DNA from: a virus
Strand: one strand, 5' to 3'
Length of the DNA stretch: 25,936 nt
Virus record (IMG/VR): IMGVR_UViG_3300027754_002030
Span: 1 to 25,936 of that record
Shown: one piece after another, positions 3 to 19,819 of the stretch
Layout: the number at the start of each line of letters is the position of its first letter
How positions within the stretch are numbered: position 1 is the stretch's first letter
Notes under the pieces: model-generated
Databases searched by the model: none
What the model saw: the letters and a program-made list of their open reading frames with translations, nothing else
What the model was told of the DNA's origin: nothing
Position numbers and translations under genes: made by a program

Positions 3-689
3 TACTTACTTTGTAAAATTATTACAGAAAATAATTTTGATACTAAAATAGATGTTATTACTCATGTCCGTTGTTGGACAACTCGACCTTGGCAACAACC
101 CATTGGCTTGCGTATGTACAAAAAATTAAAAGATATGTTTCCAAACATTATTAATCAGCGTTATGAGAATTTTATTGCTCCAGAGTTAGAACATGGAGTT
201 ACTGGATACATTTATGAAGATCCAGTTTATAAAAAGATGCACAGTGGCGATCAGTTGTCTGTGTATAACTTTAACAAGTATGTATCTTACAGATATAACT
301 TTGATGCAATCTTTAATGCAACAAGTAAAAATCCACCTATTGATTTTCCTAAAAAGATGGATAATAGAGATAGGGATGCTAAAGACGGGGAAACTAGAGA
401 TTTAATTATTAGCACAGAAGGTCAATTCTTATGCCACCCGTTTAGGTTCGTTGATAAGTCTTGGATTGTTGCACAATATTTTTATTATGGCATTGAAGAT
501 TTATTCAACTTAACAAGGAGTTGCGAGGGTGATGTAACACATAAAAAGATAGCACCAACAATACCCAACTATCAATCATATAACCCAGAAATGGAAGTGC
601 CTGAATGCGGAACTTGTTTTTGGTGTTTAGAAAGAAATTGGGCAGTATCTCAATTAGATGAAACTTTAGAAAAATTAAAAAATGAGTAA
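3..689 (+). CDS. QueC-like PP-loop protein (7-deazaguanine nitrile/amide synthase-like), 5'-truncated
   Basis: The frame is open from the window edge, so the start lies outside; 228 residues are visible. The C-terminal third looks like QueC: a stretch reading PFRFVDKSWIVAQY, then LFNLTRSCEG, then ECGTCFWCLERNWAV. QueC binds structural zinc with one Cys after a T-x-S-C motif and a CxxCxxC cluster before an R; all four Cys are here, but the gap between the first Cys and the cluster is much longer than in canonical QueC. The SGGxDS ATP-binding loop would lie just left of the window. QueC converts CDG to preQ0 through the amide ADG using ATP and ammonia. The middle of the protein is divergent, so it could be a PP-loop ATPase with another carboxylate substrate. 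It heads the radical-SAM array and overlaps the next gene by 8 nt (ATGAGTAA), which implies translational coupling. The family call is fairly good; the exact product is inference. Confidence 0.6.
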   Translation, partial: YLLCKIITENNFDTKIDVITHVRCWTTRPWQQPIGLRMYKKLKDMFPNIINQRYENFIAPELEHGVTGYIYEDPVYKKMHSGDQLSVYNFNKYVSYRYNFDAIFNATSKNPPIDFPKKMDNRDRDAKDGETRDLIISTEGQFLCHPFRFVDKSWIVAQYFYYGIEDLFNLTRSCEGDVTHKKIAPTIPNYQSYNPEMEVPECGTCFWCLERNWAVSQLDETLEKLKNE

Positions 690-1986
690 AACTTTTTGTC
701 CTGTTCCTTGGAACTTCCAAGCTATACGTGCTAATGGCGACATCCGTGTGTGCTGTCAAGCCAACGTAACTAAAAATCAAGGAGTTATTAGAAAGCCAGA
801 CGGAACCGCATTTAATGCTGGTAAAGACCAGTTGTCTGATGCTAGGAATACTGATATGATGAAGGCCATTCGCATTAATATGCTCAATGACGAATGGAGT
901 GATGAATGTGGACGTTGCAAAAATGAAGAAGTTAATGGGCTTGTGAGTAGACGTACATATGAGAATGAACACTGGCAAATGGATTTTAATAGTGTTAAAT
1001 CTAAAACTAAAGAAGATGGAAGTATTGACACGGGGGATTTTCCTGTAGTATACTATGATTTAAGATTTGGCAATTTTTGTAATTTAAAATGTCGTATGTG
1101 TGGCCCTACTGATAGCAGTGCTTGGTATGACGACTGGATTAAATTAACTGGAACTAATAAGTTCAAAGATACATCTGGAATAATGGAAATTGTAGACGAT
1201 AAAGTTGCCGCATTTAACTGGCCAGAGTACGAGCCGTTTTGGGAACAATTGGAAACCAATATACACAACATTGAGCATGTATATTTTGCTGGCGGGGAGC
1301 CAATGCTGATTGAACGTCATTATGATTTTTTAGAAAGATGTGTTGAAGCTGATGCAGCCAAGCATATTATTGTTGAATACAATACTAATATGAGTACTCT
1401 GCCTACTCGTGTTACAAATCTATGGAAAAGTTTTAAACAAGTACGTATTGGTGCAAGTGTTGATGGAATGGGCGCAGTTCAAGAATATCAACGTAGTCCA
1501 GCTAAATGGGATAAAACTTTAGACAATCTACGTAAAGTAGATAGATTACCGTCAAATATCGTTTCTTGGTTAGCATATACTGTGACTGCGTATAACGTAA
1601 ATCATATGATTGATTTTATGAAGTGGAAACTCAGTGAAAGTGATTTTAAACGAGTTAATAGCACAAATCGAAGACCAATTATAACACATCATGTTGCACA
1701 TCATCCAAAACATTTAAATGTTAGGGTTCTTCCCAAAGCATATAAAGTAGATGTAACTGCTAGATTTTATGAGTTTTTACAATGGGTTAAGGATAACAAT
1801 TATAATGAATATGTCATAAAACAGGCAGAGGACATTGTAAAAGGTGTAACTAGTTATATGAACAGTGAAAGTTATTATGACAGCCATTGGAATGAATTTA
1901 TAAAATACACACAACAACTAGACTCTATTAGAAATGAGAATTTATTAGATGTGGAACCAAAGTTTAAGGATTATATTAATGGCTAG
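682..1986 (+). CDS. Radical SAM protein with N-terminal twitch/SPASM-like Cys cluster (copy 1)
   Basis: A 434-residue radical SAM enzyme. Residues 133-140 hold the CxxxCxxC motif (CNLKCRMC) that binds the catalytic 4Fe-4S cluster, and GGEP sits at 204-207, the SAM-contacting motif of the family. Ahead of the barrel is a Cys-rich module: FCPVPW with C6, an RANGDIRVCC segment with C24/C25, and DECGRC with C76/C79. These resemble the auxiliary-cluster ligands of twitch/SPASM domains, but they lie N-terminal to the barrel. The same arrangement recurs in the genes at 3137 and 4353. The start is set by the 8-nt ATGAGTAA overlap with the QueC-like gene and by the matching N-terminus of the two paralogues (M-[SN]-K-T). 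The substrate is unknown; no precursor peptide gene is seen nearby, so a RiPP role is not supported. An enzyme acting on a nucleotide, sugar or modified base would fit the QueC-like neighbour, but this is inference. Confidence 0.85.
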   Translation: MSKTFCPVPWNFQAIRANGDIRVCCQANVTKNQGVIRKPDGTAFNAGKDQLSDARNTDMMKAIRINMLNDEWSDECGRCKNEEVNGLVSRRTYENEHWQMDFNSVKSKTKEDGSIDTGDFPVVYYDLRFGNFCNLKCRMCGPTDSSAWYDDWIKLTGTNKFKDTSGIMEIVDDKVAAFNWPEYEPFWEQLETNIHNIEHVYFAGGEPMLIERHYDFLERCVEADAAKHIIVEYNTNMSTLPTRVTNLWKSFKQVRIGASVDGMGAVQEYQRSPAKWDKTLDNLRKVDRLPSNIVSWLAYTVTAYNVNHMIDFMKWKLSESDFKRVNSTNRRPIITHHVAHHPKHLNVRVLPKAYKVDVTARFYEFLQWVKDNNYNEYVIKQAEDIVKGVTSYMNSESYYDSHWNEFIKYTQQLDSIRNENLLDVEPKFKDYING

Positions 1987-2689
1987 TTTTGATACAATTG
2001 ATTTGCTTGACGGCAACGTATTTCAAGTAACATGGGATACAGGACGCCGCTGTAATTATGATTGCAGTTATTGTCCAGCGCATAGACATGATAATTTTAG
2101 CCCCCATGCTACTTTAGAAGATTTGATAAAAAATGCAGATTTTACATTGGAATATATCAATCTATACATGACATATAGAAGCTATAAACGGGCAAGTATC
2201 AGTTTTACTGGGGGTGAGCCTACAGTTAACCCAGCGTTTATTCCGTTTGCAAAATATATCAAACAAGCATATAAGGACAAATATAAAGACAAGTACGAAT
2301 GTAGTTTTGCGCTTACTAGTAACGGGGCAATGGGTGAAAAAATGGCAACTCAAGTTATGGAAAATTTTGATCATATAACTATAAGTTATCATGCAGAAGC
2401 TGATACAAAATTAAAACAACAAGTTAGAGACAGGATGGTTCAATTTGCCACATATGGTAAAGAGCATAAATGCACAATCAGTATCAATGTTATGTTTCAT
2501 GCCGCATATTTTAATGAATGTATTGATCTGTGTGATTTCTTAGATAGTAAAAATATCAAATATGTTCCACGTATTATAGGTGAAGAACCAGACAGCAAAA
2601 GTAATTTTGCACACATGTATACAGCAGATCAAACTCAGTGGTTTAAAGACTATTGGGCAAACAATACAAAAAAGGTACAAATGGCATGA
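1979..2689 (+). CDS. Radical SAM catalytic domain, N-terminal half of a split enzyme
   Basis: A 236-residue protein with CNYDCSYC at 25-32 (CxxxCxxC) and SFTGGEP ending at 81. It is closely similar in layout to the first two-thirds of the radical SAM gene at 5473 (CNYKCSYC, SLSGGEP), but stops before any auxiliary-cluster domain. That missing part is encoded by the next gene, in the -1 frame. The chosen ATG at 1979 overlaps the previous stop by 8 nt (ATGGCTAG); an in-frame start 30 bases upstream is less likely. Near its 3' end it carries A_AAA_AAG in frame (2668-2674), 12 bases before its TGA. Alone it would be a bare radical SAM barrel; with a -1 frameshift it would give a 388-residue fusion, almost the length of the 387-residue paralogue at 5473. 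The substrate is unknown. Confidence 0.85.
   Translation: MASFDTIDLLDGNVFQVTWDTGRRCNYDCSYCPAHRHDNFSPHATLEDLIKNADFTLEYINLYMTYRSYKRASISFTGGEPTVNPAFIPFAKYIKQAYKDKYKDKYECSFALTSNGAMGEKMATQVMENFDHITISYHAEADTKLKQQVRDRMVQFATYGKEHKCTISINVMFHAAYFNECIDLCDFLDSKNIKYVPRIIGEEPDSKSNFAHMYTADQTQWFKDYWANNTKKVQMA
2668..2674 (+). other. Candidate programmed -1 frameshift site (A_AAA_AAG)
   Basis: Six A then G, placed so that zero-frame codons are AAA AAG preceded by A: the classic X_XXY_YYZ slippery heptamer, as in E. coli dnaX. A -1 slip here enters the frame of the gene at 2686, which is open through this point (reading KKGTNG before its Met). The following GG (2674-2675) also makes an AAGG Shine-Dalgarno about 10 bases before the ATG at 2686, so the element could serve re-initiation instead of, or as well as, frameshifting. 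I see no strong stimulatory hairpin; a weak 4-bp AAGG/CCTT pairing lies around 2701-2715. Confidence 0.5.
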
Positions 2690-3144
2690 GTGAACAAAAT
2701 AAGGAATTGGCCCTTAAAATTGGAAGACCCTGTTGCGGAAGTCGCACAATGTGCCTAAGCCAAAACGGAGAAAGTCACAAAAGCAAATTTGTTGATTTTA
2801 GAGAATTTAAAGGATGGCATTGTAGTGTCAACTGGTTTTTCATGCACATTGAACAGCAAACGGACAGTGTATTCCACCACCAAACGTGCCAAGCACAGTT
2901 TGGCGGAACACGCGGGCCAATAGGTAAATTAAGTGAGGGTGATAAAATTTTAGCAGAGCTTAAAGCTAGACTAGAAAGTGAAACAATGCCAACTATAATT
3001 TGTCCTAAACACACTTGTGGTTGCGGGTTGTGTGCTCCAAAAAGCCTACATAAAGAGTCTTATAAAACAGTATTGTTTAATCATGTAGATAAAAAAGTGT
3101 TTAACAATACATTAAATTTAATTAGTGAAAAAAACAATGAATAA
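2686..3144 (+). CDS. Cys-rich auxiliary-cluster (SPASM-like) domain, C-terminal half of a split radical SAM enzyme
   Basis: A 152-residue protein with nine Cys: C16, C17, C23, C46, C68, C106, C111, C113 and C116. It has no radical SAM motif. Its order of motifs (FKGWHC, then a C followed by a G-P-I-G-K-L segment, then ICPKHTCGCGLC and a PK tail) parallels the C-terminus of the radical SAM protein at 5473 (FKDWEC, SYSCHDAPLGNI, TCISPSC, SKIPKR). It is therefore best read as the detached auxiliary 4Fe-4S domain of the gene upstream. Start: the ATG at 2686 overlaps the upstream TGA as ATGA. The frame is open upstream to at least 2653, as needed for a frameshift fusion. It may be made as a separate subunit by coupled re-initiation, as a fusion by -1 slippage, or both; a sequencing or assembly indel in the A6 run is the main alternative. 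Confidence 0.8.
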   Translation: MSEQNKELALKIGRPCCGSRTMCLSQNGESHKSKFVDFREFKGWHCSVNWFFMHIEQQTDSVFHHQTCQAQFGGTRGPIGKLSEGDKILAELKARLESETMPTIICPKHTCGCGLCAPKSLHKESYKTVLFNHVDKKVFNNTLNLISEKNNE

Positions 3145-4360
3145 AGACACTTACTGCCATTATCCTTTTAAAGCCATTGCTATTAAAGATTATAAAGGCG
3201 ACAAATTACGATCATTTTGGCCCTGTTGTATGATGGGCAATGACAGAACCCCGCACAATATAAATGCTTTAGAAGTAGAGAACCCACATTTGTTAAACCC
3301 ACAAGAAATGTTTGACCATCCAAGGATGGAACAATTGAGAACAAATTTAAACAACGGTGTTAGAGATCCTGCTTGTAAAATTTGTTGGGATCAAGAGGAC
3401 AGGGGATTGAAATCATTTAGACATTTTTCAAATGATGACTATAATCTAAGTAACGACGGATTGGAACTTGTTGATATAACAGCGTCAAATATTTGCAATT
3501 TAAGATGTAGGATGTGTTCCCCATCATCTAGTAATTTATTAATGACGGATGTTAAATATTTTAAAGATAACGGAATGGAACACGAAACTCATGCGGTAAT
3601 AAAACGGTGGGCTATGAGTGAACCGTCTAGGGCAACTGAGTCGTTGCAGTGGGATTGGCTACTGGAAAATACTCATAAAATTAAAGTATTAAAAGCATCT
3701 GGGGGCGAGCCCTTTTACGACAATAAAGTAATACAACTATTAAATCGTTATGTTGAAACAGGAGCTGCCAAAAATACCTATTTGTCATTCCATACAAATG
3801 CTACACTATTTACTGCTGAGATTGTGGAATTATTAAACCATTTTAAACAAAATAAACATACATTTAGCATTGATGGTACTGATAAAGTTTATGAATATAT
3901 TAGGTACCCCGCTAATTTTAAAGAGATGGAATCAAGTGTAATAAATTATATTAAAAATGTTAAAAACTATGATCCTATTTTAAACTTTACTATGGTAGTT
4001 TCTGCACATAATGTACTTAATGTTTCTGAATATATTGAATGGTCAAGAAAAGTTTATCCAGGGGTTAGTATGCAATTTGCTGAAATATATGATATGGATA
4101 GAGGGATTGCACTAAAACATATGCCAATACATTTATTAGAGTATGCAAAGAGTAAGGCAATCAAATATATCCGCAGAGCAAGTGGCCGTGAAGACGGACA
4201 CGTATTAAATTTAATTCGACAAATTGATTTAGCAATTTCTAATAATATTGAAAATAAAGAATTATTAAAAAATGAAACTACTTTATTTGATAAGTCAAGA
4301 AATCAATCTTATAAAGACTTTTTACATCCTGATTTAGTAAGTTGGTTAGATAATGAATAA
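3137..4360 (+). CDS. Radical SAM protein with N-terminal twitch/SPASM-like Cys cluster (copy 2)
   Basis: A 407-residue paralogue of the gene at 682. N-terminal module: YCHYPF with C7, WPCC with C30/C31, and ACKIC with C80/C83. Radical SAM motif CNLRCRMC at 120-127; SGGEP at 188-192. Start chosen at ATG 3137, giving an 8-nt ATGAATAA overlap with the previous stop and an N-terminus like its paralogues; a GTG 12 bases upstream is possible. It lies between the split enzyme and another twitch-type enzyme, so the order of the array is twitch, barrel+Cys domain, twitch, twitch, barrel+Cys domain. That order suggests duplication of a two-enzyme module. The substrate is unknown. Confidence 0.85.
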   Translation: MNKDTYCHYPFKAIAIKDYKGDKLRSFWPCCMMGNDRTPHNINALEVENPHLLNPQEMFDHPRMEQLRTNLNNGVRDPACKICWDQEDRGLKSFRHFSNDDYNLSNDGLELVDITASNICNLRCRMCSPSSSNLLMTDVKYFKDNGMEHETHAVIKRWAMSEPSRATESLQWDWLLENTHKIKVLKASGGEPFYDNKVIQLLNRYVETGAAKNTYLSFHTNATLFTAEIVELLNHFKQNKHTFSIDGTDKVYEYIRYPANFKEMESSVINYIKNVKNYDPILNFTMVVSAHNVLNVSEYIEWSRKVYPGVSMQFAEIYDMDRGIALKHMPIHLLEYAKSKAIKYIRRASGREDGHVLNLIRQIDLAISNNIENKELLKNETTLFDKSRNQSYKDFLHPDLVSWLDNE

Positions 4361-5480
4361 AACATCATATTGCCCGTTACCGTTCTCACATTTGGCAATC
4401 CGTCCTAATGGACGAGTTTTTCCTTGCTGTATTTTTAGATGGGATAGCGTACCTGAAGATTTTAAAATAAGCGACCCAAATGTTTTTAATCATCCTTTTT
4501 TAGAAGACATTAGAAATAAAATGAGGAACAACGAACCAGTTGATGGGTGTTCTAGATGTTATGAAAATGAAGAAAAAACTGGTAAAAGTACTAGAATGTA
4601 TTTTATGGAAAAAGGCGAAGATTTTGGTCTAGATGTTGGTAGTACTGATGCATCTTTAGTTTATTTAGATTTAGCATTGAGTAATACTTGTAATAACAAG
4701 TGCAGGATGTGCGGCCCAGAATTAAGTACAAGTTGGTACAGCGATGCAAAGGCGTTGGGTATGAAAATCCCCAAAGGAATTATAGAACAAAATGTAGTAT
4801 TAGAAAATTACGATTTATCCACGCTAAGAGCAATTAAACTAATTGGCGGTGAACCCTTAATGGAAGAAACCAAATTTATTGATGTTTTAAAAAGATGTGA
4901 TAGAACACAATTATCAATAATGCTTACAACAAACGTAACATTAACCCCATCACCAGAATTGTATTCATTGTTAAAAGAATGTAAACAAATTAGAATTAAT
5001 TTAAGTATAGATGCGTTTGGACCACTAAATGACTTCTTAAGAAAAGGAAGCAAGTGGGAAAAAACTGTTGAGAATTTACATTGGTTTTATAAAAATTTTA
5101 CTGAAACAATTGATAAAAATTCTGTAAGTTTACACTCGGTTGCCAGCATTTATAATTTAAATCAAGTTAATTTACTGTACTCATTTATAAAAACTAATTT
5201 TCCTAAAATGAATATTGATTATGTATTAGCGGATGGTCCAGAGTGGATGTTACCTAGGCATTTACCTGAATTAGCAAAAGATGTAATTAAAGAAAAAATT
5301 GCACAATGGAAAATTGACATTGATGCACCACTATTTAGAGTAGCATTAGATGAGCTTGGTAAATCTGGTGACTTTAGAAAGTTTATAAAACAAGACACTA
5401 TACTTAATGAGTTAAGATCAGAGCATTGGAAAGAACATAATGTTGAACTTTATGAAATGGTAAAAAGATTCTATGAGTAA
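4353..5480 (+). CDS. Radical SAM protein with N-terminal twitch/SPASM-like Cys cluster (copy 3)
   Basis: A 375-residue protein, third of the N-terminal-cluster type. YCPLPF with C7, RVFPCC with C25/C26 and GCSRC with C66/C69 precede the radical SAM motif CNNKCRMC at 113-120; GGEP is at 165-168. Its N-terminal segment S-H-L-A-I-R-P-N-G-R-V is the clearest match to the 'functional residue, G-x-v, CC' pattern of twitch domains. It overlaps the upstream stop by 8 nt (ATGAATAA) and the downstream start by 8 nt (ATGAGTAA), so it lies inside a continuous translationally coupled message. The substrate is unknown. Confidence 0.85.
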   Translation: MNKTSYCPLPFSHLAIRPNGRVFPCCIFRWDSVPEDFKISDPNVFNHPFLEDIRNKMRNNEPVDGCSRCYENEEKTGKSTRMYFMEKGEDFGLDVGSTDASLVYLDLALSNTCNNKCRMCGPELSTSWYSDAKALGMKIPKGIIEQNVVLENYDLSTLRAIKLIGGEPLMEETKFIDVLKRCDRTQLSIMLTTNVTLTPSPELYSLLKECKQIRINLSIDAFGPLNDFLRKGSKWEKTVENLHWFYKNFTETIDKNSVSLHSVASIYNLNQVNLLYSFIKTNFPKMNIDYVLADGPEWMLPRHLPELAKDVIKEKIAQWKIDIDAPLFRVALDELGKSGDFRKFIKQDTILNELRSEHWKEHNVELYEMVKRFYE

Positions 5481-6636
5481 TTTAGCAAAGTCAGCATACG
5501 ATTTTACAGAAATACCCTATAACGATATTGTACGTGTGGGTCAACGTACAATGCTATATCGTGACTTATTTACAGTAAGTTGGTTGCTTGGCAGATTTTG
5601 TAATTATAAATGTAGTTACTGTTGGCCCTATGCCCGCAGTGACAAAAAAGATCATAGACCAACTGAACTGTGTTTGCTTACAATAGACGAAATCAAACGC
5701 CAAGCTCGTGACCGTGGATTTAACAGTTTCCATTTTAGTTTAAGCGGCGGTGAACCAACATTTCATCCAGGCTATATTGATATATTAAATCATTTAAATA
5801 ATGACTCTAATAATACAAACTATACCAGTGTCCACATGACCACTAATATGAGTAGAAGTTTACAATGGCACAAAGATGAATATTGTAAAGCAGCCAGCAA
5901 ATTCCATAGAGCAAGTATCACAGCAAGTTTACATACTGAACACGTTGATACAAAAGAAAAGATGGCAGAGTTTGGTGACAAGTTGGACTTATGTCAACAA
6001 CACGATGTGCAAGTAACTATTAATATGGTCATGGTTCCAGAATGGTTTGATAGGGATTATGAAAACGCACTGTACTTTCATAATCGCGGAATCAATGTTA
6101 CACTAAAGCCACAAAGTGATCCCACAGCAAGTAAAGTAGTTGATGGGTATACACCTGACATGCTTAAAGTATTGCATAACGGAATGCCTCAACGTGCATA
6201 CACTGAAGCAAAAGCTGGTGAAGCAAACCTAGTTGAGCGTCCAAAACCAACGTTTAAAAAAGAACCAGACCCAATTTACACACAAGACTCAATCCCGCAA
6301 CATTTTCAAGTTGAATTTGTGGATAAAAATAAAAAAGTTTGGTATATGGATCAAGCTGAACGATTCAATGCATTTAACTTTAATAAATTTAAAGATTGGG
6401 AATGTAGTAGTGGCTACAGAAGTATTATTATTCGTGAACCCGATGGATCAATAAAACGCAGTTACAGTTGCCACGATGCACCTTTAGGGAACATTGAAAC
6501 TGGATTTAAGTTATTTGATGGTCCAAAAACTTGTATATCCCCAAGTTGTGTTAGTAGTGCTGACAGTAAAATACCCAAAAGAGCGCCAGGAACAAAGTTA
6601 CCTCTGTGGCCCGGCGACAATACGTTTACTGTTTAA
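5473..6636 (+). CDS. Radical SAM protein with C-terminal Cys-rich (SPASM-like) domain, unsplit
   Basis: A 387-residue enzyme with CNYKCSYC at 43-50 and SLSGGEP ending at 95. The C-terminal part carries WEC, SYSCHDAPLG, a T-C-I-S-P-S-C pair and an IPKR tail, about residues 310-367; these look like ligands of an auxiliary 4Fe-4S cluster. It is the intact counterpart of the split pair at 1979/2686, and its length nearly equals that of the predicted frameshift product there. Start at ATG 5473 from the 8-nt overlap with the preceding stop. It is the last gene of the + strand unit and converges with thyX, overlapping it by 11 nt. I see no intrinsic terminator at the junction. Confidence 0.85.
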   Translation: MSNLAKSAYDFTEIPYNDIVRVGQRTMLYRDLFTVSWLLGRFCNYKCSYCWPYARSDKKDHRPTELCLLTIDEIKRQARDRGFNSFHFSLSGGEPTFHPGYIDILNHLNNDSNNTNYTSVHMTTNMSRSLQWHKDEYCKAASKFHRASITASLHTEHVDTKEKMAEFGDKLDLCQQHDVQVTINMVMVPEWFDRDYENALYFHNRGINVTLKPQSDPTASKVVDGYTPDMLKVLHNGMPQRAYTEAKAGEANLVERPKPTFKKEPDPIYTQDSIPQHFQVEFVDKNKKVWYMDQAERFNAFNFNKFKDWECSSGYRSIIIREPDGSIKRSYSCHDAPLGNIETGFKLFDGPKTCISPSCVSSADSKIPKRAPGTKLPLWPGDNTFTV

Positions 6637-7315
6637 TGTGATTTGCCAGCATTGGAAACACGGCGGCAATAACAGATCCGCACTCGCGAGCAACCAACTG
6701 ATGTTCTAGTTGTGTGCCATTTGCACTACGTAGTTCAATAAAGTGAATCCAACTGCGTAGCGTTCCGTTCATATACAATCGACTCACAGTAAGACCTTCT
6801 GGTAATACAGCTCGGGCTTGTTCTTTAGCAATACCATTTTTAATGGCCCAAGCGTATTCTTGTTTAACACTGAACAATACACGTTTCTGAGCACGTTCCC
6901 ATTCAATGGCTAACAACTTCTGTTCTTCATTCTCTGGATCAAATGCTATGCTGTTTTGCCTATTCTTTGTGTCTTGGAATCTTGCTTCACGCAATACAAA
7001 TGCCTCATCAAGTTCAGCTGTGGGATCAGCATAACGTTGACTAAACTCTTGAAAGCTAAAACTACGGTGACGTAATATCTGACGAGCAATGTCTCGAGTT
7101 GTTGTAATTTCTAAACAAGCACTGACCATCTCTAAAGGACTCCAGTGTTGATGTTTAATAAGATAGCCAATCAATTTTTCACTTGTTTCAGTGTTAAATT
7201 GATTTGCTGGATTGCTAACACGGGCACAATATGCAATTAGCTCTTGTGCGTCATCAATTCCGTTATTAACAAACTCTTCTGTTGCTTGGCTATATGATAC
7301 TAATTTTACTTTCAT
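6626..7315 (-). CDS. thyX: FAD-dependent thymidylate synthase ThyX
   Basis: A 229-residue protein with the ThyX signature RHRxxSxxxxSxRY at 82-95 (RHRSFSFQEFSQRY), preceded by QHWSPLEM and followed late by an S-R-L-Y-M-N-G-T-L-R-S-W-I-H-F segment typical of the family. ThyX methylates dUMP to dTMP using methylene-tetrahydrofolate, FAD and NADPH, without making dihydrofolate. Length is normal. It overlaps the upstream gene by an ATGA and converges with the radical-SAM unit. It supplies thymidylate for phage DNA synthesis. The identification is very secure. Confidence 0.97.
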   Translation of the reverse strand: MKVKLVSYSQATEEFVNNGIDDAQELIAYCARVSNPANQFNTETSEKLIGYLIKHQHWSPLEMVSACLEITTTRDIARQILRHRSFSFQEFSQRYADPTAELDEAFVLREARFQDTKNRQNSIAFDPENEEQKLLAIEWERAQKRVLFSVKQEYAWAIKNGIAKEQARAVLPEGLTVSRLYMNGTLRSWIHFIELRSANGTQLEHQLVARECGSVIAAVFPMLANHIKQ

Positions 7316-8833: not shown

Positions 8834-10012
8834 TTACTTTTTATCTGAAAACTCGTAATATGCATGGGAACCAAATGGAGGAACAATTTTATCATTACCG
8901 TGAATAATAAACAATGTATCACAGTAGTTGTCATCGCCCCATGAATCCCAAGGATATCCGTCTGTAAACATGATAAACTTTTTAGGAACAATGTCGTTTT
9001 CTTTCATATATGCCCAATTACACATAAAGTCGGTACCGCCACCGCCCATTATTTCGTAACTTAGTATATCTTCGCCACTGTATCCATCAAAGTCTTGTTC
9101 ATTGTACACTTTGGTATCAAAGCACCACAATTTAATATTGTAGTCTTTGTATTCATCCATAATACCTTTGAGTTCAGTAATAAAGTCCATGCTCATCTCA
9201 TCAGTAATTGAACCAGACATGTCTAAACTTACTGCAATATCAATTGTTTCGTCAAACTTCATACCAGGTAAAATTGCACCAGTATGCCATCCCTTACGAT
9301 TAGGACGACTAAAACTATAATCAGTTTTAATTGTACTTTGAATTTGTTGACGTAACAGTTCACGCCAATTCATTTTGGGCTCAGTAAGCTCTTTAATCAT
9401 ACGAGCTATGTTTGCTGGAGTATTGCCAGCACCCGCGGCATTGGCCGCTTGCATAGTAGCTTCGCGAATCTCATCGCGGATCTGTTTTAATTCATCTTTT
9501 GAATATGCTGGGCGACCTTCGCCTTCTTTTTCCCAATCAATATGATCGTCAAGCAATTGACCCAATGCCTTTAATTGTTCTTCATCGTATTTTTCAAAAA
9601 TTTCATCGTAAACTTGTTCAGCACTCTTATTGTAATGCTGTGGGTCGTGAAAGATTTTAATTTCTGGAGGCTGTTCACCAATGTGATCACGGACCAATTG
9701 TCCGTTTACGCAATAGTCAGCGGCAATATTAAAAATTTGACGATCTCTGCCTTCGTTACGTCCCATGTGGTCAAACACATTGTGCAGAATTTCATGTGCA
9801 ACAACAAACTCAACTTGTTTAGTTGTGAGACCACCAAAAAATTCACGATTGTAAAACAAATGACGACCGTCAGTTGCGGCAGTCTTACACCATGCGCTGG
9901 CATCTTGAATTTTTAAACGGGTGGCCATGTTACCAAAAAATGGATGGCGTAGCAATAGTCCCACACGGGCTACAATAATTTTATCAACGACTTCGTCTAA
10001 TGAATGTTGCAT
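8834..10012 (-). CDS. Metallopeptidase-like / VWA-like protein (DUF2201-type), partner of MoxR ATPase
   Basis: A 392-residue protein. The N-terminal domain carries HEILHNVFDH at 73-82: HExxH with a further His, a zincin-type metal site. Residues 130-210 are charged and helical. The C-terminal domain has DMSGS at 264-268, a MIDAS-type DxSxS motif, followed by a T-D-x-F-M-C-N and a FTDGYP segment, as in VWA-like folds. This two-domain layout matches proteins annotated as putative metallopeptidase plus VWA-like domain, normally encoded beside MoxR ATPases, as here. The likely role is ATPase-assisted remodelling or maturation of a target; the target is unknown. A consensus promoter (10044-10072) lies directly upstream, and AGGAGC precedes the ATG. 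Family assignment is good; peptidase activity is not shown by sequence alone. Confidence 0.85.
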   Translation of the reverse strand: MQHSLDEVVDKIIVARVGLLLRHPFFGNMATRLKIQDASAWCKTAATDGRHLFYNREFFGGLTTKQVEFVVAHEILHNVFDHMGRNEGRDRQIFNIAADYCVNGQLVRDHIGEQPPEIKIFHDPQHYNKSAEQVYDEIFEKYDEEQLKALGQLLDDHIDWEKEGEGRPAYSKDELKQIRDEIREATMQAANAAGAGNTPANIARMIKELTEPKMNWRELLRQQIQSTIKTDYSFSRPNRKGWHTGAILPGMKFDETIDIAVSLDMSGSITDEMSMDFITELKGIMDEYKDYNIKLWCFDTKVYNEQDFDGYSGEDILSYEIMGGGGTDFMCNWAYMKENDIVPKKFIMFTDGYPWDSWGDDNYCDTLFIIHGNDKIVPPFGSHAYYEFSDKK

Positions 10013-10043
10013 TTTTCTGCTCCTAATCTGTTACTATGTATAT

Positions 10044-10072
10044 ATTATAACACCTCCCGAAGGAGGTGTCAA
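10044..10072 (-). promoter_or_regulatory. Consensus sigma70 promoter TTGACA-N17-TATAAT
   Basis: On the - strand TTGACA (10072-10067) and TATAAT (10049-10044) are both perfect and 17 bases apart, upstream of the peptidase gene at 10012. The spacer is a hairpin (separate entry). It fits a phage early promoter read by host RNA polymerase. Confidence 0.8.
10050..10069 (-). terminator. UUCG-tetraloop hairpin, terminator-like, inside promoter spacer
   Basis: On the - strand ACACCTCC-TTCG-GGAGGTGT: a perfect 8-bp stem closed by C(UUCG)G, the loop typical of T4-group intrinsic terminators. It lies 14 bases after the moxR-like stop (10083). What follows is TATAATATA rather than a run of U, so termination may be weak; the same bases make the spacer and flank the -10 of a promoter. 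Confidence 0.6.
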
Positions 10073-10082
10073 TAGCTAGATT

Positions 10083-11174
10083 TTACTTCTTTTCAGTTGC
10101 GGCAGAAATGTATTTGCCAAACTTAGCGTGGAACGCATCAAAACAGCTAATCTCATCTGGATCCAACGGCAATTGATATTGCGTCAATGCAAGTTTAGTA
10201 CTCATAATTACCAATTCAGTTTCAAAATTGTCCATGATAAATTGGAAAAAGTTATTAACCTGACTATTCCAATTTTTAGCATTTTTGTCTGCGCTGTCTT
10301 TAAGTTCGTAGCACAGACTAACTGCCAAAGAATACATTGCTGAAATCTCTCTTGACTCCATCTTCTTAACAGAGCCATTCAAAATGTCTGTGGGATTTGG
10401 CATTTTGCTAGCGACTTTACGGTGAGCCATAAATTTAATAGCAAGTCCTTCACCAACTGCACCTGAGACCAAATCGGTCAATGTGTCTGCATCAGTGTCG
10501 TCATCTTCCAACAACTCGCTAACAAAGGTCCAACTACGTGGTGTAGCAAAACTACGTGAGCTAGACTTTGGATCAAAATCATACAAGTCTTTCTTAGAGA
10601 AAGTCAAAAAGCCCACTACGTCTTTATGGATACGATTCTCAGTAGCCCAAAAGCTATAGTCATCCCAGTCAACACGCATCTCCAAGTGAATAAAACGATT
10701 AGCCAACGGAGCTGGCATGCGGAATGTTACACCCTTGTCAGCTTCACGGTTACCAGCGGCAATCATTAACACATTGTCTGGCAATTTGTAAGTGCCCACA
10801 CGACGATTCAAAATCAGCTGATAAGCCGCAGCCTGTACAGCTGGAGCCGCACTATTCATTTCGTCCATAAACAAAATAATTTTTTTATGCTGTGACGCAA
10901 ATGCTTCGTCTGGCAACTCGCTAGGAGGTGCCCAAACCATTTTGCTAGTGTTACTATCAAAATATGGAATACCCTTAATGTCAGTGGGTTCCCACAAACT
11001 TAAACGGATATCAATTACATGGGCATCGAGATCTTCGCCAAGTTGCTTGACGATATCTGATTTACCAATCCCGGGAGGACCCCACAGGAAGATTGGACGA
11101 CGTTTAGAAAAACCTTTTTGGATTGCACGTTTGGCTTGCTTGGGGCCTACAGTACGGGAAATAATCTCGCTCAT
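10083..11174 (-). CDS. MoxR-family AAA+ ATPase
   Basis: A 363-residue protein with Walker A GPPGIGKS at 32-39, Walker B LFMDEM at 101-106, and a sensor-1-like MIAAGN segment near 137-142, followed by R-M-P-A-P-L-A-N-R-F, where the arginine finger of this family lies. MoxR ATPases act as chaperones, normally with a VWA-domain partner; here that partner is the gene at 8834, in the same direction. In T4-like marine phages this pair is common. Length is usual. It has its own promoter (11226-11254) and ends at a UUCG hairpin. The substrate is unknown. Confidence 0.92.
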   Translation of the reverse strand: MSEIISRTVGPKQAKRAIQKGFSKRRPIFLWGPPGIGKSDIVKQLGEDLDAHVIDIRLSLWEPTDIKGIPYFDSNTSKMVWAPPSELPDEAFASQHKKIILFMDEMNSAAPAVQAAAYQLILNRRVGTYKLPDNVLMIAAGNREADKGVTFRMPAPLANRFIHLEMRVDWDDYSFWATENRIHKDVVGFLTFSKKDLYDFDPKSSSRSFATPRSWTFVSELLEDDDTDADTLTDLVSGAVGEGLAIKFMAHRKVASKMPNPTDILNGSVKKMESREISAMYSLAVSLCYELKDSADKNAKNWNSQVNNFFQFIMDNFETELVIMSTKLALTQYQLPLDPDEISCFDAFHAKFGKYISAATEKK

Positions 11175-14263: not shown

Positions 14264-14808
14264 TTTGTAGTTTCCATATGATACGTCAGTGTTTCCAATG
14301 GAAATATTGGACTAATTTTGTTTTCATAAAATTCCATATGTTTTTCAGCAAATGGAATTAGTAACTTTTGAAACCAAGTTTGATCAATACCTTCATTAAA
14401 TGTTTTACTATGCATTATAAATGCAAAATCGCTATAGGCATATCTTTCATGATACACATGCCCTTTGACAAAGTAACTTAGTGTATCTGCGGTAAAAAAA
14501 TGTTTATGTGTTGGATCAACGCAGGCCCATTTGCTACGGAAGTAGGGAACAATAATAGTTACAGTTGCACCTGCTTTGGATATGCGATGTATTTCTTGCA
14601 TTGCTCTCACAATGTCGTTTAAGTGTTCTAACACGTTGTCCAAATGAACAACATCAAATTCATTGTTATCAAACGGCCAAGGATACACATCAAGATTGTG
14701 TACCACATCCGCGCCAACGTTTTCATTAATGTCCACAGTTACAACAACGTCTCTGAGGTTTCCTGGAAATTCTTTTTTACCACATCCTAATACAAGTAAC
14801 TTGGCCAT
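14260..14808 (-). CDS. Class I SAM-dependent methyltransferase
   Basis: A 182-residue protein from ATG 14808, which overlaps the queE stop as TAATG. Motif I is LVLGCGKKEFPG (residues 5-16), an acidic end of strand 2 in TVDINENVGAD, then FDVVHLDNVLEHL as motif IV-like and a G-A-T-V-T-I-I-V-P-Y-F strand. This is the fold of small-molecule type methyltransferases (Methyltransf_11 type); there is no DNA-recognition domain and no DPPY/PCQ motif. The acceptor is unknown. Being coupled directly to queE, it may methylate a deazapurine or nucleotide, but that is inference. Confidence 0.85.
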   Translation of the reverse strand: MAKLLVLGCGKKEFPGNLRDVVVTVDINENVGADVVHNLDVYPWPFDNNEFDVVHLDNVLEHLNDIVRAMQEIHRISKAGATVTIIVPYFRSKWACVDPTHKHFFTADTLSYFVKGHVYHERYAYSDFAFIMHSKTFNEGIDQTWFQKLLIPFAEKHMEFYENKISPIFPLETLTYHMETTK

Positions 14809-15662
14809 TAAGTACCCCACTCATTTTTAAATAATGGCACTTGTAGTCGGTCACTGTAGCGCCAGCCACGTTTCATTGCCGCCAGTGCTACGTTCTTTGC
14901 ATTTAAATTGTAAACACTTTCAACACCGCCCACTGGCATCAAATATATGTGTCCTTTAAATCCTGCTGTTCTAAATTCTTCTACAGCACGTTCTGCATCT
15001 GCAATATCTTCTTCTGTTGCCACTACAAATTTAAGATATGCTGTGCCAACTTGTTCATATTCGCAAACCACTTCTGGACAAATTGCTTCCTCCCACTTTT
15101 CACCACTAGCAGGAAGTTTAGCACTTACACTAAATGTAAGTTCTCTGCCTACTACACTATTCCATTTTCTTAAATATTCTTTAAACTCGGGAGTTAGTTT
15201 TTGAGTGCCATTTGTTTCAAACGTAATCTCTTTCAATCCACGCATCTTAGTGTTATTGATCAAGTCTGGATAAGCACGTTGCCACCCAAGCAAGGGCTCA
15301 CCACCTGTGATAACCAAATGCTCATCATGCCATTCACCATGTGGAATAATTTCCGCAATTCTGTTGGCGATTGCTTCGCTTGTGAGCATTGGACTAAGAT
15401 CTTTAAAGTCTGGATGCCAACTGGCATAACTGTCACAGCCTGTACTAACTAATGGAAGTTCATTATAAGTGGGCCACTTGTTATATTTTACTTGTTTTTC
15501 TGCTAGTACATCAGCTTCGCCGCTTAATGTACCACGTAGCATACCAAACCCTGCACATTTAAAGTTACAACCAAACGTGCGTAAAAACACAGACGGGACG
15601 CCCATATATCTACCCTCGCCCTGTATACTGTAAAATAACTCAGCTATTTTTATTTTGCTCAT
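14808..15662 (-). CDS. queE: 7-carboxy-7-deazaguanine (CDG) synthase QueE, long-insert variant
   Basis: A 284-residue radical SAM enzyme. N-terminus ELFYSIQGEGRYMGVPSVFLR is the QueE hallmark, and TGGEPL lies near 120. The cluster motif is abnormal: C32 and C36 (GCNFKC) are present, but the position three after C36 is Phe (AGF). The third Cys appears to be C76 in TGCDSYASW, giving C-x3-C-x39-C. The CD pair matches the C-D that normally ends the motif, so an insert of about 37 residues sits between the second and third ligands. QueE with an insertion in this loop (CX14CX2C) is known from bacteria; this is longer. QueE makes CDG from CPH4 using SAM and Mg2+. Its start overlaps the upstream gene by 23 nt. 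Function is confident from the motif pattern and FolE nearby. Confidence 0.9.
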   Translation of the reverse strand: MSKIKIAELFYSIQGEGRYMGVPSVFLRTFGCNFKCAGFGMLRGTLSGEADVLAEKQVKYNKWPTYNELPLVSTGCDSYASWHPDFKDLSPMLTSEAIANRIAEIIPHGEWHDEHLVITGGEPLLGWQRAYPDLINNTKMRGLKEITFETNGTQKLTPEFKEYLRKWNSVVGRELTFSVSAKLPASGEKWEEAICPEVVCEYEQVGTAYLKFVVATEEDIADAERAVEEFRTAGFKGHIYLMPVGGVESVYNLNAKNVALAAMKRGWRYSDRLQVPLFKNEWGT

Positions 15663-16520: not shown

Positions 16521-17291
16521 TTATCGTGGTGCAAATTCTTGTTGCAATTTAATATTATCAAAAAACTCTTTTTTAGCGCCAGGGTCAGTTTTAAATGATC
16601 CAGTCAGTACAGTAGTTTGTGTTAAACTACTATGCGCCATAATGCCTCGGTTCTCACAGCATCCGTGTATTGCTTGAATGTATACTGCTACGTTTCCTGA
16701 TCCTGTTGCTTTTTGGATTTCCCTAGTAATGTCATTGCAAAGTTCTTCCTGGAGAGTGCCGCGACGAGCACACCACTGAGCAATACGAGTATACTTGCTA
16801 AGACCAATAAGTTTTTCTGCGGCGATGATGCCAATGTAAGCGACACCGCTAACGGGCTGATGATGATGACTGCACATAGAGCGCAACTCGCTACGTACCA
16901 CCAACATACCTTCGTAACGGTCTGCCGAATCATTTGGAAATGCTGTTGCATCTGGTGCTGGTTCATATCTTCCTGCCATTACTTCGTTAAAATACATTTT
17001 AGCAAGTCTACGTGCTGTGCCTTTGCTATTGGGATCGTTTTCTCGATCAATCAACAACCGATCGAGTACCGTTTCAAATGCTTCTGCGGCTTCATCAATC
17101 AATTGTTCTTTGACATGCTCATTATCGATATATTCGCTAATATTGTCGCCGGCCCAAAAGCGTTTACCTTCACGTTTCATTTTAAAACGCAAATAGTTGC
17201 CTAGGTATTTTTCTTCTTTATAATCTTTGTCATCATCACCTTGCTGTTCAGCACCGGCAATGATACTTTTGTATATCACGGATTCAGTCAT
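16521..17291 (-). CDS. folE: GTP cyclohydrolase I (FolE)
   Basis: A 256-residue protein. Zinc ligands are C140, H143 (in RSMCSHHHQPVSG) and C211 (in AIHGCCENRG); IGLSKYTRI (162-170) and QEELCNDI are further FolE signatures, and H209 is the conserved active-site His. FolE converts GTP to dihydroneopterin triphosphate, the first step both for folate and for 7-deazaguanines. In a phage with QueE and DpdA-like genes the second role is the more likely. About 50 extra N-terminal residues precede the usual core. It is the first gene after a strong promoter (17312-17340) and heads the leftward run that includes queE. Confidence 0.95.
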   Translation of the reverse strand: MTESVIYKSIIAGAEQQGDDDKDYKEEKYLGNYLRFKMKREGKRFWAGDNISEYIDNEHVKEQLIDEAAEAFETVLDRLLIDRENDPNSKGTARRLAKMYFNEVMAGRYEPAPDATAFPNDSADRYEGMLVVRSELRSMCSHHHQPVSGVAYIGIIAAEKLIGLSKYTRIAQWCARRGTLQEELCNDITREIQKATGSGNVAVYIQAIHGCCENRGIMAHSSLTQTTVLTGSFKTDPGAKKEFFDNIKLQQEFAPR

Positions 17292-18507: not shown

Positions 18508-18695
18508 TTTTTAAATTTATAAATTGAACTACTGGTAAACAGTAATGCAAACGCCAACCAAGTTTCCCAAGTATAAGGAATTGTTAATACTGGAAATAAA
18601 GTGTTTAATGCCCAAATACCCAATAGCGGGCCAATAACAATGGCAATTACAACTAATGTGATTCCAAAAAGTAATTTAATAAGTGCGGATGTCAT
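18504..18695 (-). CDS. Small integral membrane protein (two helices)
   Basis: A 63-residue protein from ATG 18695 (ATGA overlap with the phosphoribosyltransferase stop). Two hydrophobic segments: about 5-28 (LIKLLFGITLVVIAIVIGPL) and 42-57 (TWETWLAFALLFTSSS). Similar short membrane proteins occur in marine T4-like phages. No enzymatic motif. Confidence 0.7.
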   Translation of the reverse strand: MTSALIKLLFGITLVVIAIVIGPLLGIWALNTLFPVLTIPYTWETWLAFALLFTSSSIYKFKK

Positions 18696-19183
18696 AACCA
18701 AAATTCCTCCCAAGGATAAACTAACCAACAATCTTCTTCTGCTTTGTTCACAGTCCAGGCATAGTAGTCTGGATCTTTAAACTGACTACTTTGATTGTGT
18801 GTTAGTACTGCAAAACGAACACTGTCACCCCAAATGTTTTGCCATTTGGGATCATCCGGAAAACAGCCACTTGGCCAATCTTGTTTAATCCAGTTAACAG
18901 TGGACCCTTGATCATTGATGTCGTCTACGATAAGAATTTTTTTGCCGTTAAATGCATCTTCTGCCATGCCCAAGTTACTAACGGTATCGCCTCCATCACG
19001 TAGACTAATGTCTAGACTGTTCATCTTAATGCCCATATATTGACTAAGCAAATTAGCGGGTACAAGCCCGCCTCGACCAATCCCTACAATATAGTCTGGT
19101 CGCCAATAATGATTATGCATTTGTCTAGCAATTTCTAAACAAGCGCCTTCTATTTGTTGCCAAGTATAATATATTTTTTTCAT
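18692..19183 (-). CDS. Purine-type phosphoribosyltransferase
   Basis: A 163-residue PRTase. The PRPP-binding signature KILIVDDINDQGST lies at 82-95, with the earlier VGIGRGGLVPANLL loop (33-45). This is the pattern of Gpt/xanthine-guanine-like phosphoribosyltransferases (COG2236 type), which join a purine base to PRPP. In this context it could salvage guanine, or act on a deazaguanine base, but no specificity can be read. ATGA overlaps on both sides. Confidence 0.88.
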   Translation of the reverse strand: MKKIYYTWQQIEGACLEIARQMHNHYWRPDYIVGIGRGGLVPANLLSQYMGIKMNSLDISLRDGGDTVSNLGMAEDAFNGKKILIVDDINDQGSTVNWIKQDWPSGCFPDDPKWQNIWGDSVRFAVLTHNQSSQFKDPDYYAWTVNKAEEDCWLVYPWEEFWL

Positions 19184-19401: not shown

Positions 19402-19819
19402 TGTCGCCTTTAATTGAATGCCACATTTTATATTTGGAAAGCTCATTAATGTATTCATCATACAGTTTCTTTAGCTTTGGATGCTTCTTTTCAAGTATAA
19501 CATCTCTTTCAGGAATATGCAAGACTTTTTCAATTGTGTTTAACCGTTCTTCCAAATCACGCCCGTTGATAACCATCTTACCTTTAACTTCTAATTCTGG
19601 AGGATTGGTCTGTTTAACAGTTAATACAGGATTGTTATTGACAGTACCAGTAGTCCAAGTTGTACCATTTGATCCGCTTGTTAAAAACTGTCCAGATGTC
19701 GTATTAGTTGTATAAATCTGTCCGCTTAATTGCGGAGGCACAACACCGTATCCAACTGCTACTGTGCTACCAATTAATCCGTTTTTAATGTTGTTTGTTT
19801 GTTTCAAGGTAGTGGTCAT
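19394..19819 (-). CDS. Short virion-associated-like protein with conserved C-terminal helix
   Basis: A 141-residue protein from ATG 19819. Residues 1-65 are Gly/Thr/Asn-rich like fibre or neck-type virion proteins (QIYTTNTTSGQFLTSGSNG). Residues 75-130 form a helical module (GRDLEERLNTIEKVLHI, R-D-V-I-L-E, KHPKLKKLYDEYINELSKY) that I have seen attached to such sequences in marine T4-like phages. A structural or tail-associated role is inferred, not proved. The start lies within the cupin gene (35-nt overlap). Confidence 0.6.
   Translation of the reverse strand: MTTTLKQTNNIKNGLIGSTVAVGYGVVPPQLSGQIYTTNTTSGQFLTSGSNGTTWTTGTVNNNPVLTVKQTNPPELEVKGKMVINGRDLEERLNTIEKVLHIPERDVILEKKHPKLKKLYDEYINELSKYKMWHSIKGDND

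Follow-up and report, generated by a model that had tools for sequence, protein, structure and literature searches.

Phages carrying many radical S-adenosylmethionine (radical-SAM) genes have already been published, and the accessible parts of these reports contain neither the gene core described below nor a function for it. Pelagimyophages possess a hypervariable host recognition cluster (HRC) with glycosyltransferases; the accessible text of PMC7029224 devotes one sentence to radical-SAM cassettes and gives no array, core, or function for these genes. The Aeromonas giant phage vB_AerVM_332-Vera (PQ474292), which is of the Chimallinviridae type, has eight radical-SAM genes in a structural cluster with baseplate and tail-fibre genes, a number called highly unusual in PMC12390700, whose available portion describes no function, core, or partners. 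The T4-like marine phage genome TARA_ERS488813_N000010 contains 12 radical-SAM genes, which were read as iron–sulfur (Fe-S) metabolism (Nishimura 2017; PMC5332604); its gene order, core, and partners are not described in the accessible sections. Within the accessible text of PMC9301287, radical SAM appears only as ahbD, and queC as an auxiliary metabolic gene (AMG). In this study, we analysed an array of radical-SAM genes in the virus record IMGVR_UViG_3300027754_002030, whose 25,936 bases are hereafter called the window. The array genes were labelled QC, R1, R2a, R2b, R3, R4, and R5, and "f" numbers denote clusters of open reading frames (ORFs) obtained by the Louvain method on BLASTP (f3 is broad and does not represent a single orthologue group). 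In contrast to the HRC, as far as its published description could be consulted, the island here is dominated by radical-SAM genes, has a core of R5 and the radical-SAM gene f2, and ends at ThyX in the window phage. 332-Vera resembles the window phage in its published description, and TARA_ERS488813_N000010 is probably a relative. No description of the R5/f2 core, its link to Bdellovibrionota, or its function was found in the accessible text of the open PubMed Central literature.

The radical-SAM genes occupy positions 682 to 6636 of the window on the plus strand, directly behind QC, and the features of the array and its border are as follows.

3–689, plus: QC, a PP-loop ATPase with a C-terminal Cys cluster, QueC-like by motif (ORF and alignment; its 5′ end lies beyond the window edge)
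682–1986, plus: R1, a radical-SAM protein with an N-terminal twitch domain (PF04055, NF033640)
1979–2689, plus: R2a, the radical-SAM barrel of a split enzyme (ORF opens at 1949; PF04055)
2686–3144, plus: R2b, a stand-alone auxiliary Fe-S-type domain with 8 Cys, 152 aa (ATGA-coupled to R2a; Cys alignment)
3137–4360, plus: R3, a radical-SAM protein with an N-terminal twitch domain (ORF opens at 3125; PF04055, NF033640)
4353–5480, plus: R4, a radical-SAM protein with an N-terminal twitch domain (PF04055, NF033640)
5473–6636, plus: R5, a radical-SAM protein with a C-terminal twitch-like domain, the final array gene in the window phage (PF04055, alignment)
6626–7315, minus: ThyX, convergent, the array border in the window phage and outside the pathway (PF02511, 141 bits)

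All five barrels exceeded the Pfam cut-off for Radical_SAM (PF04055; 38.1–55.0 bits versus 29.5), and CxxxCxxC and GGEP were present in every translation of the radical-SAM ORFs (682–1986, 1949–2689, 3125–4360, 4353–5480, and 5473–6636). With starts adopted at 682, 1979, 2686, 3137, 4353, and 5473, the six junctions from QC to R5 overlapped by 8, 8, 4, 8, 8, and 8 bases, respectively; the R2a start was placed at 1979 because the same 8-base overlap as at other junctions results. These scores, ORFs, and overlaps confirm the gapless run of five barrels, one of them split, that a sequence-only reading of this DNA had described, and they support its view of a translationally coupled array resembling a multi-step radical tailoring pathway. 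The order of enzyme types given by that reading also held. R1 (387.6 bits), R3 (229.3 bits), and R4 (234.6 bits) surpassed the 170-bit cut-off of NF033640, the N-terminal twitch family, whereas R2 (28.9 bits) and R5 (40.5 bits) fell below it and have a C-terminal Cys domain instead. NF033640 is a sequence family only; it holds R1, R3, R4, f2, and f17, but not R2 or R5. R5 was the most conserved enzyme, with a mean column identity of 76% over 14 aligned rows, and four Cys residues besides those of CxxxCxxC (311, 333, 354, and 359) were invariant in this alignment, which suggests that R5 carries one auxiliary cluster. A viperin identity for R2 and R5 was considered and rejected: their similarity to prokaryotic viperins was weak (47.6 and 38.4 bits versus a cut-off of 180), and the R5 profile matched viperin structures at an E of approximately 0.006, which was ascribed only to the shared barrel.

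The array continues beyond the window edge. A 28,248-base contig, represented by loci L007 and L076, was 99.82% identical to the window over 9,983 bases and 99.87% identical over 14,633 bases, and moving upstream of QC it encodes f17, f2, f16, f3, f13 (74 aa), f14, f18, and a partial f38. The 15 genes from f38 to R5 form an unbroken run with an overlap of at least 1 base at every junction. CxxxCxxC is present in each of f17, f2, f16, and f3; f2 (414.4 bits) and f17 (208.1 bits) exceeded the NF033640 cut-off, and f3 and f16 matched radical-SAM families, yet below the cut-offs of those families. With these four upstream genes, the array totals nine radical-SAM-type genes, and the window therefore opens inside it.

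A scan with R1 yielded 61 viral loci, and a scan with R5 yielded at least 592 confirmed stretches, 80 of which were used; near-duplicates occur among the phage records, so that record counts are not independent. Upstream genes were counted in the 69 of 80 R5 loci whose sequence extends 7.9 kb or more upstream of R5. In 67 of these 69, the 8 kb before R5 contained at least two additional CxxxCxxC ORFs of 190 aa or longer (median 4, maximum 6); L096 and L120, the exceptions, had none, and 258 of the 264 upstream ORFs shared the strand of R5. Among the 45 of 80 R5 records longer than 50 kb, PF04055 matched 4 to 22 places per record, with 10 or more in 31 records; these counts cover the whole record at E ≤ 0.001 and include QueE-like genes, not the array alone. 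Gene content around R5 differed strongly between phages. By contrast, f2 was present in 39 of 47 phage records (E ≤ 1e-120; best place at least 665 bits), at two places in two of them, and f18 in 38 of 47; these 47 are the 45 records above plus G018 and G019, and fragments are possible among them. R5 and f2 are thus the conserved core of the array.

Among 50,697 phage records including isolates, tblastn at E ≤ 1e-5 detected no match for R5, QC (truncated query), f18, or f98, and R1 and f2 matched a few isolate phages at 21 to 26% identity. R4 matched 40 Vibrio phage records at E ≤ 1e-3, with identities of 20 to 22% among the 15 matches listed. No f2-type match was found in plasmids. Vibrio phage K566 possesses five overlapping CxxxCxxC ORFs within 17 kb of a 35-kb stretch, whose best matches are f40 and f21 of the N-twitch clade (24–28% identity). 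K566 resembles the window phage in having a small overlapping radical-SAM cluster, but its stretch gave no match to R5, f2, f18, f14, or QC. As a separate observation, this cluster of the cultured phage K566 (L264, 11549–22011) neighbours a gene whose annotation is PagP, for lipid A modification.

The AlphaFold model of f18 (mean pLDDT 89.3) resembled GT-A folds, with Z scores of 9.2 to 11.5, root-mean-square deviations (rmsd) of 2.7 to 4.9, and 125 to 212 residues aligned over 50 rows; the match to B4GALNT1 had a Z score of 11.5 and an rmsd of 2.7 over 135 residues. The model supports a GT-A-like fold, and f18 may accordingly be named a putative glycosyltransferase. The model of f14 (mean pLDDT 87.4) points to a class I methyltransferase fold (Z 14.2–16.5, rmsd 2.5–5.1, 159–204 residues aligned), and its best structural match (Z 16.5, rmsd 2.7, 162 aligned) has many near-ties. 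Sequence searches of the Protein Data Bank (PDB) with f18, f14, and f98 returned nothing useful, and f44, which looked like a pyridoxal-phosphate enzyme by eye only (a label not used here), had no PDB match. f4 matched short-chain dehydrogenases/reductases (SDRs; E 6e-5). Within 8 kb of R5, sister loci encode a carbamoyltransferase, Asp/Asn-hydroxylase-type oxygenases, UDP-glucose-dehydrogenase-like, GNAT, and FAD/NAD reductase proteins, and in one case an inosamine-phosphate-amidinotransferase-like protein (E 1.9e-25).

The position of the island in phage genomes was examined relative to the baseplate wedge gene phrog_10646, which 20 of the 45 records longer than 50 kb contain. R5 lies 32 to 65 kb downstream of the wedge gene and on the same strand in 18 of these 20. 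The closest isolate counterparts of the wedge protein are jumbo-phage versions (35% identity), e.g., those of Agrobacterium phage Atu_ph07 and Salmonella phage Munch, and its gene is adjoined by one encoding 4,400 to 4,600 aa, which we guess to be VrlC, a gene that together with the neck protein gp14 marks the bounds of the HRC. In G008, all called genes are on the plus strand from approximately 61 kb, through the wedge, tail genes, and array, to R5; in G006, the same-strand run is interrupted by four opposite genes inside the island, and one gene between wedge and array matches tail-fibre families. The window itself has no tail gene; in the group, the downstream, same-strand location of R5, the tail-fibre match of G006, and the predicted fold of f18 are as expected of a host-recognition cluster. 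Because the island continues the run of tail genes, its expression would presumably be late and tail-linked, with a product that probably arises at a late stage and ends up on tail fibres or the host surface.

A genome scan with the N-twitch alignment gave 60 bacterial loci, all in metagenome-assembled genomes (MAGs); 34 were titled as Bdellovibrionota groups, and the best identity to R1 was 54%. Several bacterial loci are clearly chromosomal. The L182 region ends in secE-nusG-rplK-rplA-rplJ-rpoB (by eye; NusG confirmed by Pfam), and, by eye, L184 neighbours a serS-like gene (contig of 937 kb) and L186 neighbours uvrA- and atp-like genes. R5 was found in all 11 bacterial genomes searched, at one place in nine and as two partial places in two; these genomes were chosen from the 60 loci, and R5 had previously been seen near several. 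Across the phylum of G055, the MAG containing L184, R5 was present in 17 of 290 genomes, ten of which were among the eleven chosen; its occurrence is therefore patchy. The bacterial MAGs with R5 number 18 and belong to one phylum, their titles being mostly Bdellovibrionota; 16 of them possess f2, three at two places. In ten 20-kb regions around bacterial R5, from 10 of these 18, f2 and f3-type genes occurred in nine each, f18 in seven, and f14 in five, and the shortest version of the core was four consecutive genes, f18-f2-R5-f3 (L259). The initial idea of a phage-only system is not supported, because the core is also chromosomal in Bdellovibrionota, which are related to predatory bacteria. 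Genes related to glycans are found next to the bacterial islands: GT2 in both L182 and L183, and PMT_2 together with a UDP-glucose-dehydrogenase-like gene in L182. Visual inspection alone further pointed to GT2-like genes in L192 and L257 and, in L258, to a set resembling O-antigen genes. At L192:14250–15347 (minus), a 366-aa PP-loop protein scoring 25.8 bits, just above the QueC cut-off, lies beside the core; PP-loop enzymes thus accompany the core in bacteria too. Recurring paired membrane-protein-like genes were also noted beside bacterial islands (L182, 1186–2620 and 4551–6000; L184, 4509–5958), and the one examined had no Pfam match. The contigs L198, L188, and L190, from MAGs of Gammaproteobacteria MED685, Rickettsiales MED657, and a Neisseriaceae, look like phage contigs binned into MAGs because they carry the phage-type f13.

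A tree of 116 barrels was built with a quick method; its supports are from the Shimodaira–Hasegawa-like approximate likelihood-ratio test only, and it includes several long branches. R2, R3, and R5 each formed one clade, and the window R1 and R4 grouped with their own orthologues; every window barrel sat with orthologues of other phages rather than with its array neighbours, and the Bdellovibrionota R1, R2, R5, and f2 fell in the matching phage clades. The nearest relative of R1 was the upstream f2 (support 94), not R3 or R4, and R2 and R5 shared a common deep branch. Duplication of a two-enzyme module, as had been proposed from gene order, is therefore not supported as a recent event; what survives of it is two ancient paralogous sets, R1/R3/R4 and R2/R5. 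Phage R5 was nested inside bacterial R5 (supports 89–99) in a weakly rooted tree, which suggests that R5 passed from bacteria to phages.

The R2 cluster has 68 members, some contigs being counted twice: 36 encode one ORF of 369 to 429 aa, 28 encode a barrel of 234 to 246 aa followed by R2b, and four are cut or broken. R2b aligned with the C-terminal domain of unsplit relatives, and 8 Cys columns were kept in 13 of 13 chosen rows; the two domains are fused in other phages and in Bdellovibrionota. The window R2a–R2b junction is an ATGA stop/start overlap, and the overlap is 4 bases in 26 of the 28 split copies and 8 bases in two. A programmed frameshift was rejected, since R2b starts at an ATG of its own that overlaps the stop codon of R2a. 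Short barrels with stand-alone Cys domains were also seen elsewhere, namely, f77 with f67 and f28 with f56 (L109, 3392–4727 and 6339–6701; L028, 3914–4204); these may be further splits, and fission into barrel and Fe-S domain may recur.

We tentatively interpret these genes as a variable radical-SAM tailoring island, composed of a conserved core and swappable enzymes, that modifies a surface glycan; with the substrate class presumed, we give this proposal somewhat less than an even chance. The proposal builds on the observed gene content, overlaps, co-occurrence of the core genes, position, and two modelled folds, and the radical-SAM genes among the structural and tail-fibre genes of 332-Vera agree with it. 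The window genes would be the 3′ half of an island that large T4-like aquatic phages have in their tail (host-recognition) region. The core of R5 and f2, usually with an f3-type radical-SAM enzyme and the GT-A-fold f18 and often with the class I methyltransferase f14, would build a shared modified unit, which is most likely a sugar or glycan of an unusual kind; f18 would transfer the sugar, and R5, f2, and f3 would act on it, the order of reactions being likewise presumed. QC may adenylate a carboxylate for amidation or nitrile formation. A variable set, consisting of R1–R4, PP-loop ATPases, SDRs, 2-oxoglutarate-dependent oxygenases, and amidino-, carbamoyl-, and acetyltransferases, would decorate the unit in each phage, and the product, at the phage or host surface, could serve receptor matching or masking. 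Bdellovibrionota would apply the same core to their own surface glycans. A bolder form, which we consider conceivable but doubtful, is a combinatorial radical-SAM "decoration code," in which the R5-f2/f3-type/GT-A core of Bdellovibrionota and large phages makes a novel radical-modified glycan (or glycoprotein) and lineage-swapped enzymes, split ones included, vary it to suit receptor use or to exclude superinfection.

Several observations weigh against the glycan proposal. The core is not universal: of the 47 phage records, 8 lack f2 and 9 lack f18, large ones included (G004 is without f2, and G035 is without both), and f18 and f14 are absent from 3 and 5 of the ten bacterial 20-kb regions, respectively. 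The two largest records break the positional rule, the wedge being on the opposite strand in G001 and downstream of R5 in G002. A Pfam scan at E ≤ 0.01 left 19 of 30 partner proteins without a match. For the f18 model, IspD-type nucleotidyltransferases score within a Z of approximately 1 of the glycosyltransferases, and the top Foldseek rows are peptide glycosyltransferases, albeit weak (TM 0.4). Peptides are frequent substrates of Asp/Asn-hydroxylase-type oxygenases and of SPASM/twitch radical-SAM enzymes. In view of these substrates, the Foldseek rows, and the IspD ties, a protein target fits nearly as well.

The main rival is virion-protein maturation, in which the enzymes modify tail-fibre or other virion proteins by cross-linking, hydroxylation, epimerisation, or glycosylation; we regard it as possible, if on the unlikely side. 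The location of the array in the tail region, the Asp/Asn β-hydroxylase-type oxygenases of sister loci, the SPASM/twitch domains, and the peptide glycosyltransferases heading the weak f18 list are all consistent with it. So is the unrelated isolate 332-Vera, whose structural cluster contains eight radical-SAM genes according to the accessible text of PMC12390700 and which shifts the balance slightly from the glycan proposal towards this one. Against it, the core also resides in Bdellovibrionota chromosomes, where no tail genes were recognised and several loci contain glycan genes. In addition, f13, the sole conserved small ORF of the phages, does not resemble a precursor, and no copy of it turned up in the mapped chromosomal islands among ORFs of at least 60 aa. 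As to a ribosomally synthesized and post-translationally modified peptide, the window array has no intergenic gaps, the conserved f13 is protein-like, and no precursor was seen among ORFs of at least 50 aa; such a peptide keeps some plausibility.

A nucleobase or nucleotide pathway, in which QC makes an activated carboxylate or nitrile and the radical-SAM enzymes build a hypermodified DNA or tRNA base, appears improbable. QC (286 aa at full length, L007:7148–8008) has a PP-loop SGGADS motif and an invariant C-terminal Cys cluster in the alignment, which speak for this pathway and bear out the "QueC-like" label as far as motifs go. Family membership did not hold up: full-length copies matched no Pfam family (L077 relative) and no NCBIfam family (L007 copy), QueC (PF06508; cut-off 22 bits) had no match in the window, and the QC profile gave only weak PP-loop matches in the PDB. 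The phage backbone offers further support, with two genes on the strand opposite to the array.

14808–15662, minus: QueE-like radical-SAM enzyme (phrog_2076, E 1.3e-51)
16521–17291, minus: GTP cyclohydrolase I (PF01227)

Part of the preQ0 pathway is therefore present, apart from the array. The placement of both genes in the opposite-strand backbone nonetheless counts against the nucleobase reading, as does G006, in which QueE is present and the map contains no QC-type gene. DpdA-type 7-deazaguanine DNA modification shares with the window phage the QueE-like enzyme, the GTP cyclohydrolase, and the QueC motifs of QC, but no DpdA or tRNA-guanine transglycosylase (TGT) was found in the searched records, and QC is not tied to the array. 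DpdA (NF041059) was detected in 0 of 14 records, with a weak control (a signal in 3 of 14 control genomes, none above the cut-off), and TGT (PF01702) in 0 of 21; both sets may include incomplete records. QueC (PF06508) exceeded the cut-off in 2 of 21 records, and 26 of 69 loci have a QueC-like gene (f6/f30, the type of QC) in the 8 kb upstream of R5. The array is thus widespread without a queC or dpdA neighbour, and the deazapurine link that the sequence-only reading had drawn is not upheld.

We give similarly little credence to a diffusible secondary metabolite, aminoglycoside- or cofactor-like, acting against competitors or the host. The amidinotransferase, carbamoyltransferase, PP-loop, and radical-SAM enzymes do resemble a tailoring set, but no synthase or export gene was recognised in the loci examined (no systematic search was made), and a lysing phage would gain little from a slowly exported product. 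Very improbable is the reading that the genes mainly reflect phage-supported Fe-S metabolism as AMGs, as the 12-radical-SAM T4-like genome is treated in the accessible text of PMC5332604: an A-type carrier gene (PF01521) occurs in 12 of 47 records, but 35 of 47, fragments included, lack one despite their radical-SAM arrays, and the genes are arranged in an ordered island that has a core of its own.

Three further minus-strand features of the window backbone were noted. A metallopeptidase-like/VWA (DUF2201) protein is encoded beside a MoxR-like AAA ATPase at 8834–11174, and relatives of the former occur in 735 phage records; a phosphoribosyltransferase gene lies at 18692–19183, and the gene at 19785–20261 matches a phage "cysteine dioxygenase" family.

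If the proposed tailoring island is real, these phages would hold a large reservoir of untested radical chemistry, with 4 to 22 radical-SAM places in each of the 45 long records, and f18-f2-R5-f3 would provide a small, defined set that can be expressed and tested. That radical-SAM enzymes split into a barrel and a stand-alone Fe-S-type domain is in itself of interest to enzymologists. The orthologous genes link uncultivated phages to Bdellovibrionota, which bears on their hosts or on gene flow, and the phages would compete through chemically unusual surface structures.

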